A stretch of DNA of 64,000 bases from Frateuria defendens (lineage in GTDB: Bacteria > Pseudomonadota > Gammaproteobacteria > Xanthomonadales > Rhodanobacteraceae). Positions 24,611-30,066 of the stretch are shown here, piece after piece (positions within the stretch are counted from its first letter, which is position 1; each line of letters opens with the position of its first letter). The stretch covers positions 62,001 to 126,000 of the forward strand of contig NZ_LFQR01000042.1 in NCBI RefSeq assembly GCF_001182895.1. The letters are read 5' to 3'. The notes beneath the pieces are model-generated. The model saw only the letters and a program-made list of their open reading frames with translations. It searched no databases and was not told the origin of the DNA. A program made the position numbers and the translations under genes.

Positions 24611-25438
24611 TCAGCACGCCCCGCCGGCGCAACAGGGCGCGCGCACGCCGGCCGGTGCGGCTGGCCTCGCATCGTCGGCATCGCCGGCGGCAGCGACCGA
24701 TTCCACCACCGGCGTGGCAGTCGCCTCGGTCGTCGCGTCCGCCGCCAGCGCGTGCGCCGCAGCCGCCTCCTTGCGCTCGCTGTAGCGATCGACTAGGTAG
24801 TCACGGCGGTCGCGCAGCAGCAGGGTGAACTTGACCAGCTCCTCCATCACGTCCACCACGCGGTCGTAGAAGGGCGAGGGCTTCATGCGCCCGTCCTCGC
24901 CGAACTCCTGCCACGCCTTGGCCACCGAGGACTGGTTGGGGATCGTCACCATGCGCATCCAGCGCCCGAGCACGCGCAGCGTGTTGACCACGTTGAAGGA
25001 CTGCGAGCCGCCGCAGACCTGCATCACCGCCAGCGTGCGGCCCTGGGTGGGGCGCACGCTGCCGTCCTCCAGCGGCAGCCAGTCGATCTGGTTCTTGAAC
25101 ACGCCGGTCACCGCGCCGTGCCGCTCCGGGCTCACCCACACCTGCCCTTCGGACCACCGCGACAGCGCGCGCAGCTCCTGCACCTTCGGATGGCTGGCCG
25201 GCACGCTGTCGAGCAGCGGCAGGCCGTGCGGATCGAACACCCGCGTCTCGGCGCCCAGCCGGCGCAGGATGCGCTCGGCCTCCAGCGCCAGCTTGCGGCT
25301 GAAGGACGGCGGCCGCAGCGAACCGTACAGCAGCAGGATGCGCGGCGGATGGCCGCCGCTCGCAGGGCGCTCCAGCCTGGCGAGGCTGGGCGCGTCCAGC
25401 AGGTCGGCGGCGAGATTGGGCAGGTCGGGGTGGGGCAT
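24611..25438 (-). CDS. arsH: ArsH, NADPH-dependent FMN reductase for organoarsenicals, with Cys-rich tail
   Basis: 275 residues. The flavodoxin-like fold shows the FMN phosphate loop [15 protein letters not shown] (about 35-49) and the ArsH-specific [20 protein letters not shown]. ArsH oxidises trivalent organoarsenicals and confers resistance to them. The conserved domain ends near residue 230; an Ala-rich extension follows, ending APCCAGGAC with three cysteines, which could bind As(III). It diverges from arsC-acr3-arsR across a 73-bp control region. Confidence 0.92.
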
Positions 25439-25458
25439 GGCGAATCCCGTTGCGGCGG

Positions 25459-25488
25459 TCGAATAATTCGACCATTATGGAAATATGG
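25459..25488. promoter_or_regulatory. Putative ArsR operator between arsH and arsC
   Basis: TCGAATAATTCGA (25459-25471) is a perfect odd palindrome, followed at once by CCATTATGG (25472-25480), also palindromic, then AAATATGG. The ATTCG/ATATGG words and AT-richness are like known ArsR sites, and the position covers both divergent promoters. Confidence 0.5.
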
Positions 25489-25511
25489 AAGTCAACCATC
25501 GGACATCGCCC

Positions 25512-26030
25512 ATGCCTCCCTGCCGCATCCTCTTCGTCTGCACCGGCAATTCGGCCCGCAGCATCCTTTCCGAGGCCACGCTCAACCATCTCGGCCACGG
25601 CCGCTTCGAGGCCCACAGCGCCGGCAGCCGCCCCACCGGCCGGGTGAACCCCCACGCGCTGGCGACGCTGGCGGCCGCGGGCATCCCCACCGAAGGCCTG
25701 TCGAGCAAGTCCTGGGACCGCTTCACCGAAGGCAGCGGGACACCGCTGGACATCGTCGTCACCGTCTGCGACAGCGCCGCCAGCGAACCGTGCCCGGTGC
25801 TGTTCGGCGACTTCGTGCGCAGCCACTGGGGCCTGCCTGACCCGGCGGCCGCGACCGGCGACGCGGCGGCGATCGACGCCACGTTCCGGCAGGCCCACGC
25901 GCTGATCACGCGCCGCCTGCAGGCGCTGCTGGCGCTGCCGGTCGAGCGCATGCCGAAGGACGCCTTGCGGCGCGCGCTGGACGAGATCGGCACCCTCGGC
26001 GCCGGCGACAACGACGCGAAGCCGGCATGA
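25512..26030 (+). CDS. arsC: Arsenate reductase, thioredoxin-coupled (LMW phosphatase type)
   Basis: Reduces arsenate to arsenite for export by the next gene. 172 residues with the phosphatase-type P-loop CTGNSARS (C10 to R16) and the redox pair C86 and C94 in VCDSAASEPCP, the three-cysteine relay of thioredoxin-linked ArsC. An in-frame ATG at 25485 lies inside the operator region, so the ATG at 25512 is preferred. The stop overlaps the acr3 start (ATGA). Confidence 0.93.
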   Translation: MPPCRILFVCTGNSARSILSEATLNHLGHGRFEAHSAGSRPTGRVNPHALATLAAAGIPTEGLSSKSWDRFTEGSGTPLDIVVTVCDSAASEPCPVLFGDFVRSHWGLPDPAAATGDAAAIDATFRQAHALITRRLQALLALPVERMPKDALRRALDEIGTLGAGDNDAKPA

Positions 26031-27109
26031 GCGCGGCGACGGCGCCCCGCATCGGCTTCGTCGAGCGCTACCTCAGCGCCTGGGCGGCGCTGTGCATCGT
26101 GGCCGGCGCAGGGCTCGGCTATCTGCTGCCGGACGGCTTCGCCAGGCTCGGCCGGATGGAGGTCGCCAAGGTCAACCTGCCGGTGGCCGCGCTGATCTGG
26201 CTGATGATCGTGCCGATGCTGCTCCGGATCGACTTCGCCGCGCTCGCCGGCGTGCGGCGCCAGTGGCGGGGCATCGGCATCACGCTGTTCGTCAATTGGG
26301 CGGTCAAGCCGTTCTCGATGGCCCTGCTCGGCTGGCTGTTCGTCCGCCACCTGTTCGCCGCCTGGCTGCCCGCCGGGGAGCTCGACGCCTACGTGGCCGG
26401 GCTGGTGTTGCTGGCCGCCGCACCGTGCACGGCGATGGTGTTCGTGTGGAGCCGCCTCTGCGGCGGCGAGCCGGCCTTCACGCTGAGCCAGGTCGCGCTC
26501 AACGACGCGATCATGGTGGTGGCCTTCGCGCCCATCGTGGGCCTGCTGCTGGGGCTCTCGGCGATCACCGTGCCGTGGGCCACGCTGCTGCTGTCGGTGG
26601 GGCTCTACATCGTGGCGCCGGTGCTCGCCAGCGCGGTCCTGCGCCGCGCGGTGCTCGCGCACGGCGGCCCGCTGGCGCTCCGGCGGCTGCTCGACCGGCT
26701 GGGCCCGGTGTCGCTGGCCGCCCTGCTGCTGACCCTGGTGCTGCTGTTCGGCTTCCAGGGCCGTCAGCTCGTGGCGCAGCCGCTGGTGATCGCGCTGCTG
26801 GCGGTACCGATCCTGATCCAGGTCTACTTCACCTCCGGCCTGGCCTACCTGCTCAACCGCGCTGCCGGCGTGCCCCATGCGGTGGCCGCGCCCTCGGCGC
26901 TGATCGGCGCCAGCAACTTCTTCGAGCTGGCGGTTGCCACCGCGGTGGGCCTGTTCGGCGTGCACTCGGGCGCCGCCCTGACCACCGTGGTGGGCGTGCT
27001 GATCGAGGTGCCGGTGATGCTGTCGGTCGTGCGCCTCGCCGTCGCCAGCCGGGGCTGGTACGAGGCCGGCGCGGCCCGGACGGGCGGGCGCGGCGACCTC
27101 GTACACTGA
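26027..27109 (+). CDS. acr3: ACR3-family arsenite efflux permease
   Basis: 360-residue, ten-helix inner-membrane protein that exports As(III). The ACR3 signature AAAPCTAMVFVWSRLCGGEPAFTL-type segment is present, including the essential cysteine in APCTAMV, and LNDAIMV follows. It overlaps arsC by 4 bp. arsR follows 26 bp downstream. Confidence 0.95.
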   Translation: MSAATAPRIGFVERYLSAWAALCIVAGAGLGYLLPDGFARLGRMEVAKVNLPVAALIWLMIVPMLLRIDFAALAGVRRQWRGIGITLFVNWAVKPFSMALLGWLFVRHLFAAWLPAGELDAYVAGLVLLAAAPCTAMVFVWSRLCGGEPAFTLSQVALNDAIMVVAFAPIVGLLLGLSAITVPWATLLLSVGLYIVAPVLASAVLRRAVLAHGGPLALRRLLDRLGPVSLAALLLTLVLLFGFQGRQLVAQPLVIALLAVPILIQVYFTSGLAYLLNRAAGVPHAVAAPSALIGASNFFELAVATAVGLFGVHSGAALTTVVGVLIEVPVMLSVVRLAVASRGWYEAGAARTGGRGDLVH

Positions 27110-27135
27110 CGCCGCCACTCTCCAGGGCCCATCGC

Positions 27136-27540
27136 ATGCAGACCAAGCAAGCCATCGCCATCCTCGCCGCGCTCGCCCAGGAATCCCGGCTGGCCGTGTA
27201 CCGCCTGCTGATCGAGCACGCGCCCGACGGCCTGGCCGCCAGTGCGATCGCCGAGCGCCTCGGGCTGGCCAATGCCACGCTCTCCTTCCACCTGAAGGAG
27301 CTGCAGCACGCCGGGCTCATCGTCGGCCGCCAGCAGGGACGCTTCATCTACTACGCGCCGGTGCTGGACACGATGGACGCGCTGGTCGGCTTCCTCACCG
27401 AGAACTGCTGCGGCGGCAGCGGCGCATCGTGCGCCACGCCCCGGGCCTGTGCGCCGGCAACGCAGCGCGCTTCGACCAAGACCCGGGCCGCCGAGCCTGC
27501 GCCGCGAACGAGGCGCGCTGCGCGCGCGATCGAGCGCTGA
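27136..27540 (+). CDS. arsR: ArsR-family As(III)-responsive repressor with C-terminal Cys site
   Basis: 134 residues: winged helix-turn-helix at about 35-75 (ASAIAERLGLANATLSFHLKELQHAGL) and a long basic tail. The classic ELCVCDL metal site of E. coli ArsR is absent. Instead vicinal cysteines C91-C92 and C99, C105 follow the last helix (TENCCGGSGASC), matching the C95/C96/C102 site of Acidithiobacillus ferrooxidans ArsR. Being last in the operon rather than first is less usual. The palindromes at 25459-25488 are the likely operator. Confidence 0.9.
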   Translation: MQTKQAIAILAALAQESRLAVYRLLIEHAPDGLAASAIAERLGLANATLSFHLKELQHAGLIVGRQQGRFIYYAPVLDTMDALVGFLTENCCGGSGASCATPRACAPATQRASTKTRAAEPAPRTRRAARAIER

Positions 27541-27606: not shown

Positions 27607-28911
27607 TCAGAGCGGCACGCCGTGGTACTTCGCGACCTGCGCCGGCGACACCGCCGAGGCGCGGTTGCCCCAGCTGCGGCGGATGTAGGTGGCGAGCGCG
27701 GCGATCTCGCGGTCGGTGAGGCGCTGGCCGAACGGCGGCATCGAGTACGGGCGCGGGTTGCCGTCGGTGGAGGGCGCCACGGCGCCGGCCTGGATGATGC
27801 GGATCACGTTCATGCTGTTGCCGGCGGTGACCGAGCCGTTGCCGGCCAGCGGCGGATAGGCCAGGCCCGAGCCCTCGCCGTTGGGCTGGTGGCAGTCGGC
27901 GCACTCCTTGCGGTAGAGCGCCTCGCCCTCGGCCATCAGCTGCTCGGTCTCGGCCGCGTTCACCGCGATGCTCACCAGCTCCGGCGGCTCCTTCGTGGGC
28001 ACGGTCTTGACGTAGGTGGCGATCGCCTTGGCGTCCGTCGCGGTCAGGTATTGCAGGCTGTGGAACACGGCGTCGGCCATCGGGCCGTAGGCCGCGCCCT
28101 TGGGCGAGACGCCGGTGCGCAGCAGCGCGGCGATGTCCTCCACGCTCCACTGCGCCAGGCCCTCCTGGTTGAGCGCCGGGCCGTACCAGCCCTGGCCCAC
28201 CACTTCGCCGCCGGAGAGGTAGCGCGAGGCCGGCAGCGAGGCCAGCGGGCCGCGGCCCGAGTGGCACATGTTGCAGTGGCCGAGGCCGTCCACCAGATAT
28301 TTGCCGCGGTTCCACTCCGCCCCCTGCGACGGGTCGGGCCGGAATTCGGCGGGTCGGAAATACAGCATACGCCAGCCCAGCACCGCGAAGCGCATGTTGA
28401 AGGGGAACGGCATGCGGTTCTGCGAATTCGGCTGCGAGGACGCCGGCCGCGACATCAGGTAGGCGAAGATGGCGTCGCTGTCCTCGCGGCTCAGGTTGGT
28501 GAAGTTGGTGAACGGGAAGGCCGGGTACAGGAAACCGCGCGGGGACACGCCGTAGTGCATCACGCGCCAGAAGTCGTCGGCAGTCCAGCTGCCGATACCG
28601 TTGTTCTTGTCGGGCGTGATGTTGGTGGAATACAGCGTGCCGAACGGCGTGACGAACTCCAGGCCGCCGGCGTAGAGGTCGCCGCGCGGCACCGTGTGGC
28701 AGGCCACGCAGTCGCCGGCCAGCGCGAGATAGCGCCCGCGCGCGATCAGCGCCGGATCCTTGAGGTTGACCGGGCTGCCCGACCCCACCCGCGAGGCGAT
28801 GAGGGTCGGCAGGCCGCCCTGGCGCACGAACAGCCACGCCGCGACGATGAGGCCCGCCAGCACGATCGCCAGCAAAGGCCACAGCCAGTAACGCTTCGAT
28901 GACTTGCTCAT
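27607..28911 (-). CDS. Membrane-anchored tri-haem cytochrome c (dehydrogenase cytochrome subunit type)
   Basis: 434 residues. An N-terminal membrane helix (about 10-30) is followed by three cytochrome c domains with haem motifs CVACH (68-72), CNMCH (213-217) and CADCH (337-341). The layout is that of the cytochrome subunit of membrane-bound alcohol/gluconate/aldehyde dehydrogenases (AdhB type), which pass electrons to ubiquinone. No dehydrogenase subunit is nearby; the neighbour upstream is another cytochrome c. The electron donor is therefore unknown. MSKSSKRYW start with a plausible upstream gap of 277 bp occupied by a repeat. Confidence 0.88.
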   Translation of the reverse strand: MSKSSKRYWLWPLLAIVLAGLIVAAWLFVRQGGLPTLIASRVGSGSPVNLKDPALIARGRYLALAGDCVACHTVPRGDLYAGGLEFVTPFGTLYSTNITPDKNNGIGSWTADDFWRVMHYGVSPRGFLYPAFPFTNFTNLSREDSDAIFAYLMSRPASSQPNSQNRMPFPFNMRFAVLGWRMLYFRPAEFRPDPSQGAEWNRGKYLVDGLGHCNMCHSGRGPLASLPASRYLSGGEVVGQGWYGPALNQEGLAQWSVEDIAALLRTGVSPKGAAYGPMADAVFHSLQYLTATDAKAIATYVKTVPTKEPPELVSIAVNAAETEQLMAEGEALYRKECADCHQPNGEGSGLAYPPLAGNGSVTAGNSMNVIRIIQAGAVAPSTDGNPRPYSMPPFGQRLTDREIAALATYIRRSWGNRASAVSPAQVAKYHGVPL

Positions 28912-28922
28912 GCGCGCCCCTT

Positions 28923-29189
28923 AGAGCCTGTTCATGACCTCCCAGTACCCCGCGCCGGGAGCTGTTTGCGCGCAGGGCAAGGAAGAACGAAGGAGTGGAC
29001 GTCCGTCCACGACTGAGTGATGACGCCGCCCTGCGGGCAAGCAGACCCGGCCCTGCGGGTTGCTTCGCTGTGGCCGCCAGGTGGTGGTACGTCGCGCCGG
29101 GCAGGCTGGCTGCCTGGCCAAGCGGCGCGCTGCCGCCTGGCGGCCACAGCGAAGCAACGCGGGGCACTGGGAGGCCATGAACAGGCTCT
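28923..29189. repeat. Nested long inverted repeat (MITE-like) between two cytochrome genes
   Basis: Outer arms of 32 bp (28923-28954 and 29158-29189) match at 30 positions and begin AGAGCCTGTTCATG. Inside, TTGCTTCGCTGTGGCCGCCAGG (about 29060-29081) pairs with 29135-29156, and GTGGAC-GTCC-GTCCAC (28995-29010) forms a third hairpin. The right arm ends on the first base of the downstream gene's stop codon. No transposase is encoded. It looks like a mobile, non-autonomous or REP-cluster element. The 277-bp gap holds nothing else. Confidence 0.8.
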
Positions 29190-29962
29190 TACTGCTGCAT
29201 GCTGCCGCAGACCAGCGGCAGCTTCTGGGTGGCGGAAGCCGGCTCGGCCTGGAGCGTGTCGCTGCCCGGACGCGAAGCGATCCAGATGCCCACGGCCTCG
29301 ATGTCGGCGGTGCTCAACCGGTCCACCACCTCGTGCATGCAGTCCGGCGCCACCGCCTGGCGCGCGCCGTTCTTCCAGCCGCCGAGCTGCGCGGTGAGGT
29401 AGCTGCGCGACATGCCGACCAGTCGCGGGATGGCCGGGTCGCGGCCTTCCAGCCGGGTACCGTGGCAGGCCGCGCAGGCCGGCACGCCGAGCTGCGCGTC
29501 GCCCTGCTCCACCAGCGCCTGGCCGCGCTGCAGCACCGCGGGCGCGATGCCCTCGGTGGAGGCCGGCGGCTCGTAGTGCGGCGCCTGCCTGGCGTAGTAG
29601 TCGGCCACCTCGCGCATGTAGGCGTCGTCCATGAAGCGCACCAGGTAGACCATCTGCGTGTAGCGCCGCTGGCCGTCCTTGAAGGCCTTGAGCTGGTGGT
29701 AGAGGTAATCCGCCGATTTGCCTGACAGGCGCGGATAGAACTGGTTGTAGGCCACGCCCTCGCCGTGCACGCCATGGCAGGCCGCGCAGCCCATCAGGCG
29801 CTGCTCCATGGTGTCGGGCACCTCGGCCGCCACGGCCTTGCCGCCGGCGCCGAAGACGCCCAGGATGGCGACGATCAGCCAGGCGGCCCAGGACTCCGGC
29901 CGGCCGGGACGACGTGTAGGGGATGCAGCGCGCGCAGCGTGGGGAAGCTGGGTCGTTTCCAT
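29189..29962 (-). CDS. Di-haem cytochrome c4-like protein
   Basis: 257 residues from the ATG at 29962 (GGAG ribosome site). An N-terminal hydrophobic segment (about 25-46, ending AVAAE) is a signal peptide or anchor. Two haem domains follow: CAACH at 59-63 and CAACH at 163-167, each with distal Met candidates, the class of cytochrome c4. It would shuttle electrons in the periplasm, perhaps from the tri-haem cytochrome encoded after it to a terminal oxidase. A longer in-frame start at 30049 gives an unlikely Cys-rich leader. Confidence 0.87.
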   Translation of the reverse strand: METTQLPHAARAASPTRRPGRPESWAAWLIVAILGVFGAGGKAVAAEVPDTMEQRLMGCAACHGVHGEGVAYNQFYPRLSGKSADYLYHQLKAFKDGQRRYTQMVYLVRFMDDAYMREVADYYARQAPHYEPPASTEGIAPAVLQRGQALVEQGDAQLGVPACAACHGTRLEGRDPAIPRLVGMSRSYLTAQLGGWKNGARQAVAPDCMHEVVDRLSTADIEAVGIWIASRPGSDTLQAEPASATQKLPLVCGSMQQ

Positions 29963-30066
29963 GCGGCTCCATTCGGAAAGCAAGGCCTCGGGAGGCGAGG
30001 CGTGGCACCACGGACAACAACGCTTGCCGCAACATCTTGTCGCAGCCATCGCAAAGGATCAATCAC

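Follow-up and report, generated by a model that had tools for sequence, protein, structure and literature searches.

MITEs, short non-autonomous transposable elements without a transposase gene, are usually regarded as decaying leftovers of insertion sequences, and bcr1, ERIC, NEMIS/Correia, RUP and BOX are related kinds of them in bacteria. The 265-bp repeat analysed here, located between two cytochrome c genes in a 64,000-nucleotide stretch of a Frateuria defendens contig (the window, in which all coordinates are given), resembles these families in being short, non-coding, intergenic, bounded by inverted ends and able to fold as RNA, but is unlike them in its branched fold, its four tandem G.A motifs and the occurrence of related bodies, mostly with different ends, in two bacterial families. 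A table in PMC2267715 includes bcr1 with a conserved predicted structure, and PMC10969869 describes MITEs as typically AT-rich, whereas this element is GC-rich and of near-constant length (266 bp). With REP/BIME and GTAG-tagged palindromes, as outlined in PMC3733652 (REPs of 20–40 bp, one class GTAG-tagged), it shares an intergenic, palindromic character and many copies; unlike REPs, it is 266 bp long, has TNA duplications and is matched by an IS5 partner. A REP/RAYT palindrome (20–40 bp, GTAG tag) was accordingly rejected on length (266 bp) and termini (GAGCCTGTT). The partner, an IS5-family insertion sequence (NF033580, PF13340 plus PF01609) in three related genomes (G015, G022 and G056), has the same ends and the same 3-bp TNA duplications, but is 846–849 bp long and encodes its transposase in two frames, whereas the element is non-coding and is seen to share only the ends. 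No title or abstract beginning among the best-ranked literature matches described the repeat. Because the element combines covariation along its whole length with fixed non-Watson–Crick motifs and persistence in two families, it offers a case in which selection acting on a MITE body, as distinct from the ends, becomes testable.

The element occupies positions 28,924–29,188 (265 bp; plus strand, defined as the strand carrying the tandem G.A rod) and, judged by its repeats, fold, flanks, copies and matching insertion sequence, is very probably a non-autonomous IS5-type MITE. On its left lies a TTA trinucleotide (28,921–28,923), a predicted target duplication according to the local sequence, the flanks of other copies and the TNA duplications of the matching insertion sequence; the right copy (29,189–29,191) is, by sequence and gene calls, the minus-strand TAA stop codon of a cytochrome c family gene (29,189–30,049, minus strand; PF00034), which precedes the element in the reading direction common to both flanking genes. 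A second cytochrome c family gene (27,607–28,911, minus strand; PF00034) follows downstream, and Pfam cytochrome c domains were thus found in both neighbours. With the ATG of this gene at 28,911 and the stop of the upstream gene at 29,189, the gap that the first-pass annotation had described as wholly filled is nearly so, with 12 bases (28,912–28,923, including the left TTA) outside the element. The arms that it had placed at 28,923–29,189 are real, but their outermost A/T belong to the flanking TTA trinucleotides, the element proper spanning 28,924–29,188; similarly, the right arm does contact the stop codon, although not by exact abutment, as the last base of that arm is the first base of the codon. 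Neither of the two window open reading frames tested matched Pfam, and a coding element was rejected, an 85-aa frame hinging on the 265-bp length of the window copy; by its length and by the absence of Pfam matches in the tested frames, the element is short and without a transposase gene. Beside the cytochrome genes, the group at 24,611–27,540 carries FMN reductase, LMWPc, SBF transporter and ArsR-type regulator domains, and from these domains looks like an arsenic resistance cluster.

Copies of the element are dispersed in its own genome and in related ones, so that the single-copy alternative named by the first-pass annotation does not hold. In the own genome, of 4.19 Mb in 333 contigs, blastn found at least 12 places and at least 19 rows, which is a lower bound as 40 of 90 candidates were scored, and several rows are the palindrome matching itself reversed. 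At least two of these places (L049 and L051) are full-length copies besides that of the window, and most others are partial matches. Two of the own-genome loci (L238 and L248) are half elements, one ending at the tip of the P2 arm and the other inside the P4 arm (arms defined below). Matches were obtained in 15 of 41 genomes, own included, and an exact pattern taken from the most conserved stretch occurred in 106 stretches of genome contigs from Rhodanobacter, Dyella, Frateuria, Fulvimonas and one 'Proteobacteria' MAG. Across the order, 49 of 299 genomes matched (37 of the own family and 12 of a second family; two candidates per genome scored); plasmids and phages gave no match. From the fetched loci we extracted 114 distinct full-length copies, the window's included, of which 93 are 265–267 bp long (65 of 266 bp, 25 of 265 bp and 3 of 267 bp) and the 21 others between 238 and 311 bp.

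The ends of the element read GAGCCTGTT...AACAGGCTC. TNA flanks it on both sides in 40 of 94 rows, and across all 94 rows (one an antisense duplicate) the two flanking 3-mers were equal 20 times, compared with 11.9 times after shuffling (P = 0.0095). The target duplications that the first-pass annotation had named as a sign of mobility are borne out by TTA/TTA at the window and by the same N on both sides in 20 of the 40 copies with TNA flanks; fewer than half of all copies (20 of 94) have exact duplications, which counts against the MITE reading. The route to the partner was a transposase remnant in a related genome (L298 in G002), which supplied a transposase C-terminus for a search of 147 genomes; 8 of these matched, with intact elements in G015, G022 and G056. 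This insertion sequence (846–849 bp, two reading frames) resides in genomes of the element's own family, and both of its ends were found at 16 of 23 loci, representing 15 distinct elements (L345 and L351 hold the same one). It is flanked by TNA on both sides at 16 of 16 loci, identically at 11, and its ends read GAGCCTGTT...AACAGG(C/T)TC, one copy (L346) departing at one or two bases. Against NF033580 (transpos_IS5_3; cut-off 110), the larger frame reaches 160.5 and 139.2 bits and the smaller 91–94 bits, below that cut-off; the Pfam domains are PF13340 and PF01609. On the larger-frame score, the transposase is classed as IS5, of the TNA-duplicating type. The first 18 nt of the insertion sequence are also those of three MITE copies in G002 (L076–L078), and G056 carries both together.

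An autonomous partner with the same ends is thus present in related genomes but was not found in the element's own, where (333-contig draft) a 53-aa query gave no partner match at E ≤ 1 × 10−5, PF13340 was absent and the fetched loci of the two DDE_Tnp_1 genes contained no GAGCCTGT. The genome richest in copies of the insertion sequence (G015) gave no MITE match, and two MITE-rich genomes (G021 and G013) are without such an insertion sequence. These absences count against the MITE reading. Another IS5 element, with GAGCCTGTCGTCATGA ends and TA duplications, surfaced in G016 via PF13340/PF01609 in the first genome set and was set aside as a cousin, not the partner. G016 holds more than 20 near-identical copies of this IS5-type element with its GAGCCTGTCGTCATGA ends and TA duplications (L252, L256, L258, L260–L276 and L278–L280), and a fragment of its transposase, which matched 6 of 78 genomes, led to no better partner candidate.

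Sites lacking the element exist in other genomes: the site of L071 is element-free in L195 (92% identity over 510 bp), that of L172 in L151 (91%), that of L101 in L143 (84%) and that of L162 in the genome of the window (88% over 306 bp). Most of the aligned element-free sites show small gaps or substitutions at the junction, which counts against the MITE reading. Around 23 other cytochrome homologue loci (homologues 40–49% identical, which need not be syntenic), no element was found nearby, the one match (E = 0.2) not being significant. A position conserved in all relatives, the observation by which the first-pass annotation would have abandoned mobility, is contradicted by these element-free orthologous sites, and its proposal of a mobile, non-coding, MITE-like element accords with the dispersed copies, the TNA duplications, the insertion sequence with the same ends and the empty sites. 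We therefore regard the element, on sequence comparison, as very probably a copy of a non-autonomous transposable element (MITE). An IS5-type transposase acting in trans would have recognized the GAGCCTGTT ends and placed the element where the cytochrome c gene has its TAA stop codon; duplication of 3 bp would have restored the stop, leaving the gene intact and the element between two codirectional genes that probably form one operon. At one site with matching flanks (L066 and L202), the bodies lie in opposite orientation, through either an inversion at the outer arms or two insertions there, and three further site pairs are also opposite in orientation, with shifted boundaries.

Contact with a stop codon is common among the copies. 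The minus-strand trinucleotide before the element is a stop codon in 45 of 93 copies, and 36 of those 45 stops terminate a long frame (at least 60 codons, or running on past the edge of the locus). A codon-model gene caller, which found both window cytochrome genes on the right strand, put a neighbouring gene's stop directly against the element on one side in 25 copies and on the other in 7 (106 of 114 copies usable). Among 62 usable site clusters of 94, 23 abutted a stop, compared with 19.2 expected if TNA sites at which no gene is broken were chosen at random, so no special targeting of stop codons is needed, and we rejected it. Gaps offer a median of 3.5 permissive TNA sites, and the reason for the stop-codon sites may be simple: few targets in GC-rich operons are harmless, and the stop is often one of them.

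A repeat search of the window copy recovered outer arms at 28,923–28,954 and 29,158–29,189 (32 nt, 94% complementary) and inner arms at 29,056–29,095 and 29,122–29,161 (40 nt, 83%), so that terminal inverted repeats are present. As RNA, the plus strand has a minimum free energy of −217.1 kcal/mol, compared with −128.6 ± 5.4 kcal/mol in 200 shuffled sequences (z = −16.5; none as stable), and the minus strand a z of −14.6. The inverted repeat first noted from the sequence alone is therefore well founded; of the three nested hairpins described with it, the outer stem does enclose the rest, but the interior is branched (P2, P3 and P4) and not simply nested. On the plus strand, the outer stem P1 pairs 28,924–28,953, whose first 9 nt (GAGCCTGTT) form the conserved terminus, with 29,159–29,188, as supported by repeats, alignment and covariation. 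By consensus fold and covariation, the P2 arm (28,954–29,051) comprises a CUGUUUGC/GCAAGCAG stem, a rod with four tandem G.A motifs (5′ strand 28,981–28,994 and 3′ strand 29,011–29,024; columns 59–77 and 94–107 of alignment A1) and a tip hairpin, GTGGAC-GTCC-GTCCAC (28,995–29,010). P3 (29,052–29,058) is a small hairpin in the alignment and consensus fold, and P4 (29,059–29,158; consensus fold and covariation) combines a hypervariable but paired stem with a conserved tip that is flipped relative to the consensus. This tip (within 29,059–29,158) is inverted in the window copy compared with the other 80 copies of A1, which brings the G.A rod and the G.U-rich arm onto one strand. Rfam returned six weak matches for 28,800–29,300, all below the gathering cut-off (four microRNA families, one ribosomal leader, outside the element, and one sRNA).

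The fold is maintained across copies despite sequence change. Alignment A1 comprises 81 copies of the own (first) family, from 94 rows after removal of 12 of other lengths and one antisense duplicate. RNAalifold predicted 86 pairs on it, 61 with changes on both sides, and in the 95-pair structure described above, 95.2% of 7,679 cells are standard pairs. Changes on both sides affect 68 of the 95 pairs (39.4 ± 2.5 in shuffles) and 919 cells (244 in shuffles), these shuffles ignoring relatedness, and only 32–39% of cells remain paired when partners are slid by 1–3 columns; compensatory changes thus exceed shuffles (again, ignoring relatedness) and slides, as expected of a structured RNA under selection, or possibly of causes acting at the DNA level. 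Sequence varies, with pairing kept, both at the base of P4 and in the part of the outer stem that follows the terminus (for example, column pair 12/263 is UA in 30 copies, AU in 24, CG in 16 and GC in 6). Within P2, the four tandem G.A motifs of the window plus strand are spaced by 2, 2 and 1 Watson–Crick pairs; of their eight G.A column pairs, seven persist in 72–81 of 81 copies and one (76/95) in 69, around a pair that itself varies (73/97; AU 38, GC 32). A further rod pair (67/100) is non-standard in 19 of 81 copies, which counts against a selected fold. P4 has four column pairs that are C.A in 46–62 of 81 copies, corresponding to G.U on the minus strand.

Related bodies in the second family extend these observations. 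Thirty copies passed a length and score filter, and all share a related body; their left ends read GGGCCTG in 16, GGGCGTG in 3, GAGCCTG in 2 (L387 and L389) and other variants in 9, with CTAG at both ends in 13, at one end in 9 and at neither in 8. End types are not strictly bound to family, as a first-family copy (L384) has CTAG-flanked GGGCGTG ends. Three of the four tandem G.A motifs are kept in the second family (25–30 of 30 per column pair), the motif next to the tip hairpin being divided at column pair 76/95 between G.A (13) and A.C (13), and the C.A columns persist in 16–27 of 30. The P2 stem, nearly invariant in the first family, is replaced through compensating changes in the second (column pair 43/124: AT 10, GC 10, CG 7 and TA 2). 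Consensus identity between the families is 61% in P1 and 85% in the P4 tip. An insertion-sequence partner for the second family was not found, PF01609 occurring in one of six genomes, without matching ends in the fetched locus. That sequence change in the body has left one elaborate fold intact across two families suggests that the fold is under selection.

The strongest alternative is that a mutational process maintains the pairing, one arm of the quasi-palindrome being corrected from the other by template switching or arm-to-arm conversion, so that covariation would require no function. Template switching and arm correction are known processes for quasi-palindromes, and two observations are consistent with them: at the single site shared by L066 and L202, the outer arms differ between the copies and are paired within each, and wobbles in P1 show no strand preference (50 G.T versus 52 A.C, column pair 25/251 left out), which also weakens the case for an RNA role. 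Such correction should, however, erase fixed mismatches, whereas G.A pairs are kept in 69–81 of 81 first-family copies, three of the four motifs are kept in the second (25–30 of 30), and the C.A columns persist in both (46–62 of 81 and 16–27 of 30). Because these mismatches persist in two families, we consider a selected fold likely and a purely corrected palindrome rather unlikely, if still a serious competitor. Stem mutations would have been followed by compensating ones while two sets of non-Watson–Crick pairs stayed fixed. With moderate confidence, and from comparative sequence data, we propose that the fold itself, as transcript RNA or as a DNA hairpin in movement or replication, is selected, and that the body persists thereby. 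A more tentative possibility is that of an ancient selfish body, a structured RNA or a single-stranded DNA, which has outlived its transposases, its fold kept across two families and its ends rewritten for different IS5-type enzymes (mostly TNA-flanked GAGCCTG in the first family; mostly GGGCCTG or GGGCGTG, often CTAG-flanked, in the second), both of which would allow entry at stop codons without breaking genes.

Of 106 copies, 78 lie between codirectional genes, and in the first family, counted by site cluster, the G.A strand is antisense to such genes in 51 cases and sense in 17 (P = 4 × 10−5), or 33 and 13 once clusters abutting stops are removed (P = 0.0045). A transposase acting on two like ends should have no preferred orientation, so the bias hints at selection; the second family (n = 30; 15 sense, 8 antisense, 5 divergent, 1 convergent and 1 unresolved) lacks it, and we therefore do not rest a function on orientation. 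Folded alone, the P4 arm is more stable as the minus strand in 80 of 81 copies (the window copy, with its flipped tip, being the sole exception), the P2 arm folds at least as well in its plus-strand form in 78 of 81, and the whole element is more stable as the minus strand in 63 of 81.

One function that these patterns could indicate, akin to the regulatory RNA fold that the first-pass annotation had named as an alternative, is that of a host cis-acting regulatory or processing RNA that sets the expression ratio or stability of flanking operon genes. The prevalence of codirectional settings (78 of 106), the first-family bias (51:17, and 33:13 off stops), the better folding of P4 on the strand mostly transcribed there (80 of 81) and the presence in two genera of a copy before the same MPSFFIDRPIFAW gene (L064 and L100) would all fit. 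We nevertheless consider it improbable: sites are not conserved, given the element-free orthologous sites and the lack of a copy at any of the 23 other cytochrome loci, the second family is without the bias (8 antisense, 15 sense), P2 folds at least as well on the other strand (78 of 81), and no promoter-like or terminator-like site was found. The elements at L064 and L100 stand in opposite orientation, in the gap before a gene starting MPSFFIDRPIFAWV, which, read by eye, we take to be an RND efflux pump subunit. For the selected fold, our preferred guess at a mechanism, itself held with considerable doubt, is that folding makes the insertion harmless, as a compact intercistronic RNA domain without a terminator, so that the element survives in operons; the next candidate is that the folded DNA takes part in movement.

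Movement as single-stranded DNA by an HUH/Y1 (REP-RAYT-like) enzyme could explain conserved hairpins and strand-specific features (the G.A rod on one strand, C.A/G.U on the other), but is disfavoured, as highly improbable, by the 3-bp TNA duplications and by the same ends on a DDE-type IS5 element. An intrinsic terminator or a chance palindrome peculiar to this gap, suggested by the position directly behind a stop codon, is refuted to near certainty by the folding z of −16.5, the 114 full-length copies and the absence of any intrinsic terminator (GC stem plus T run) at 28,700–29,400.

The own genome also holds four non-coding-looking loci (L249, L247, L241 and L240; about 296, 324, 176 and 91 bp) with the same AGAGCCTGTT start and different bodies, their far ends partly imperfect. 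From this common start, and from 14 occurrences of the pattern AGAGCCTGTTYANG compared with 0 for its reversed control, a single transposase may lie behind the spread of several MITE families.
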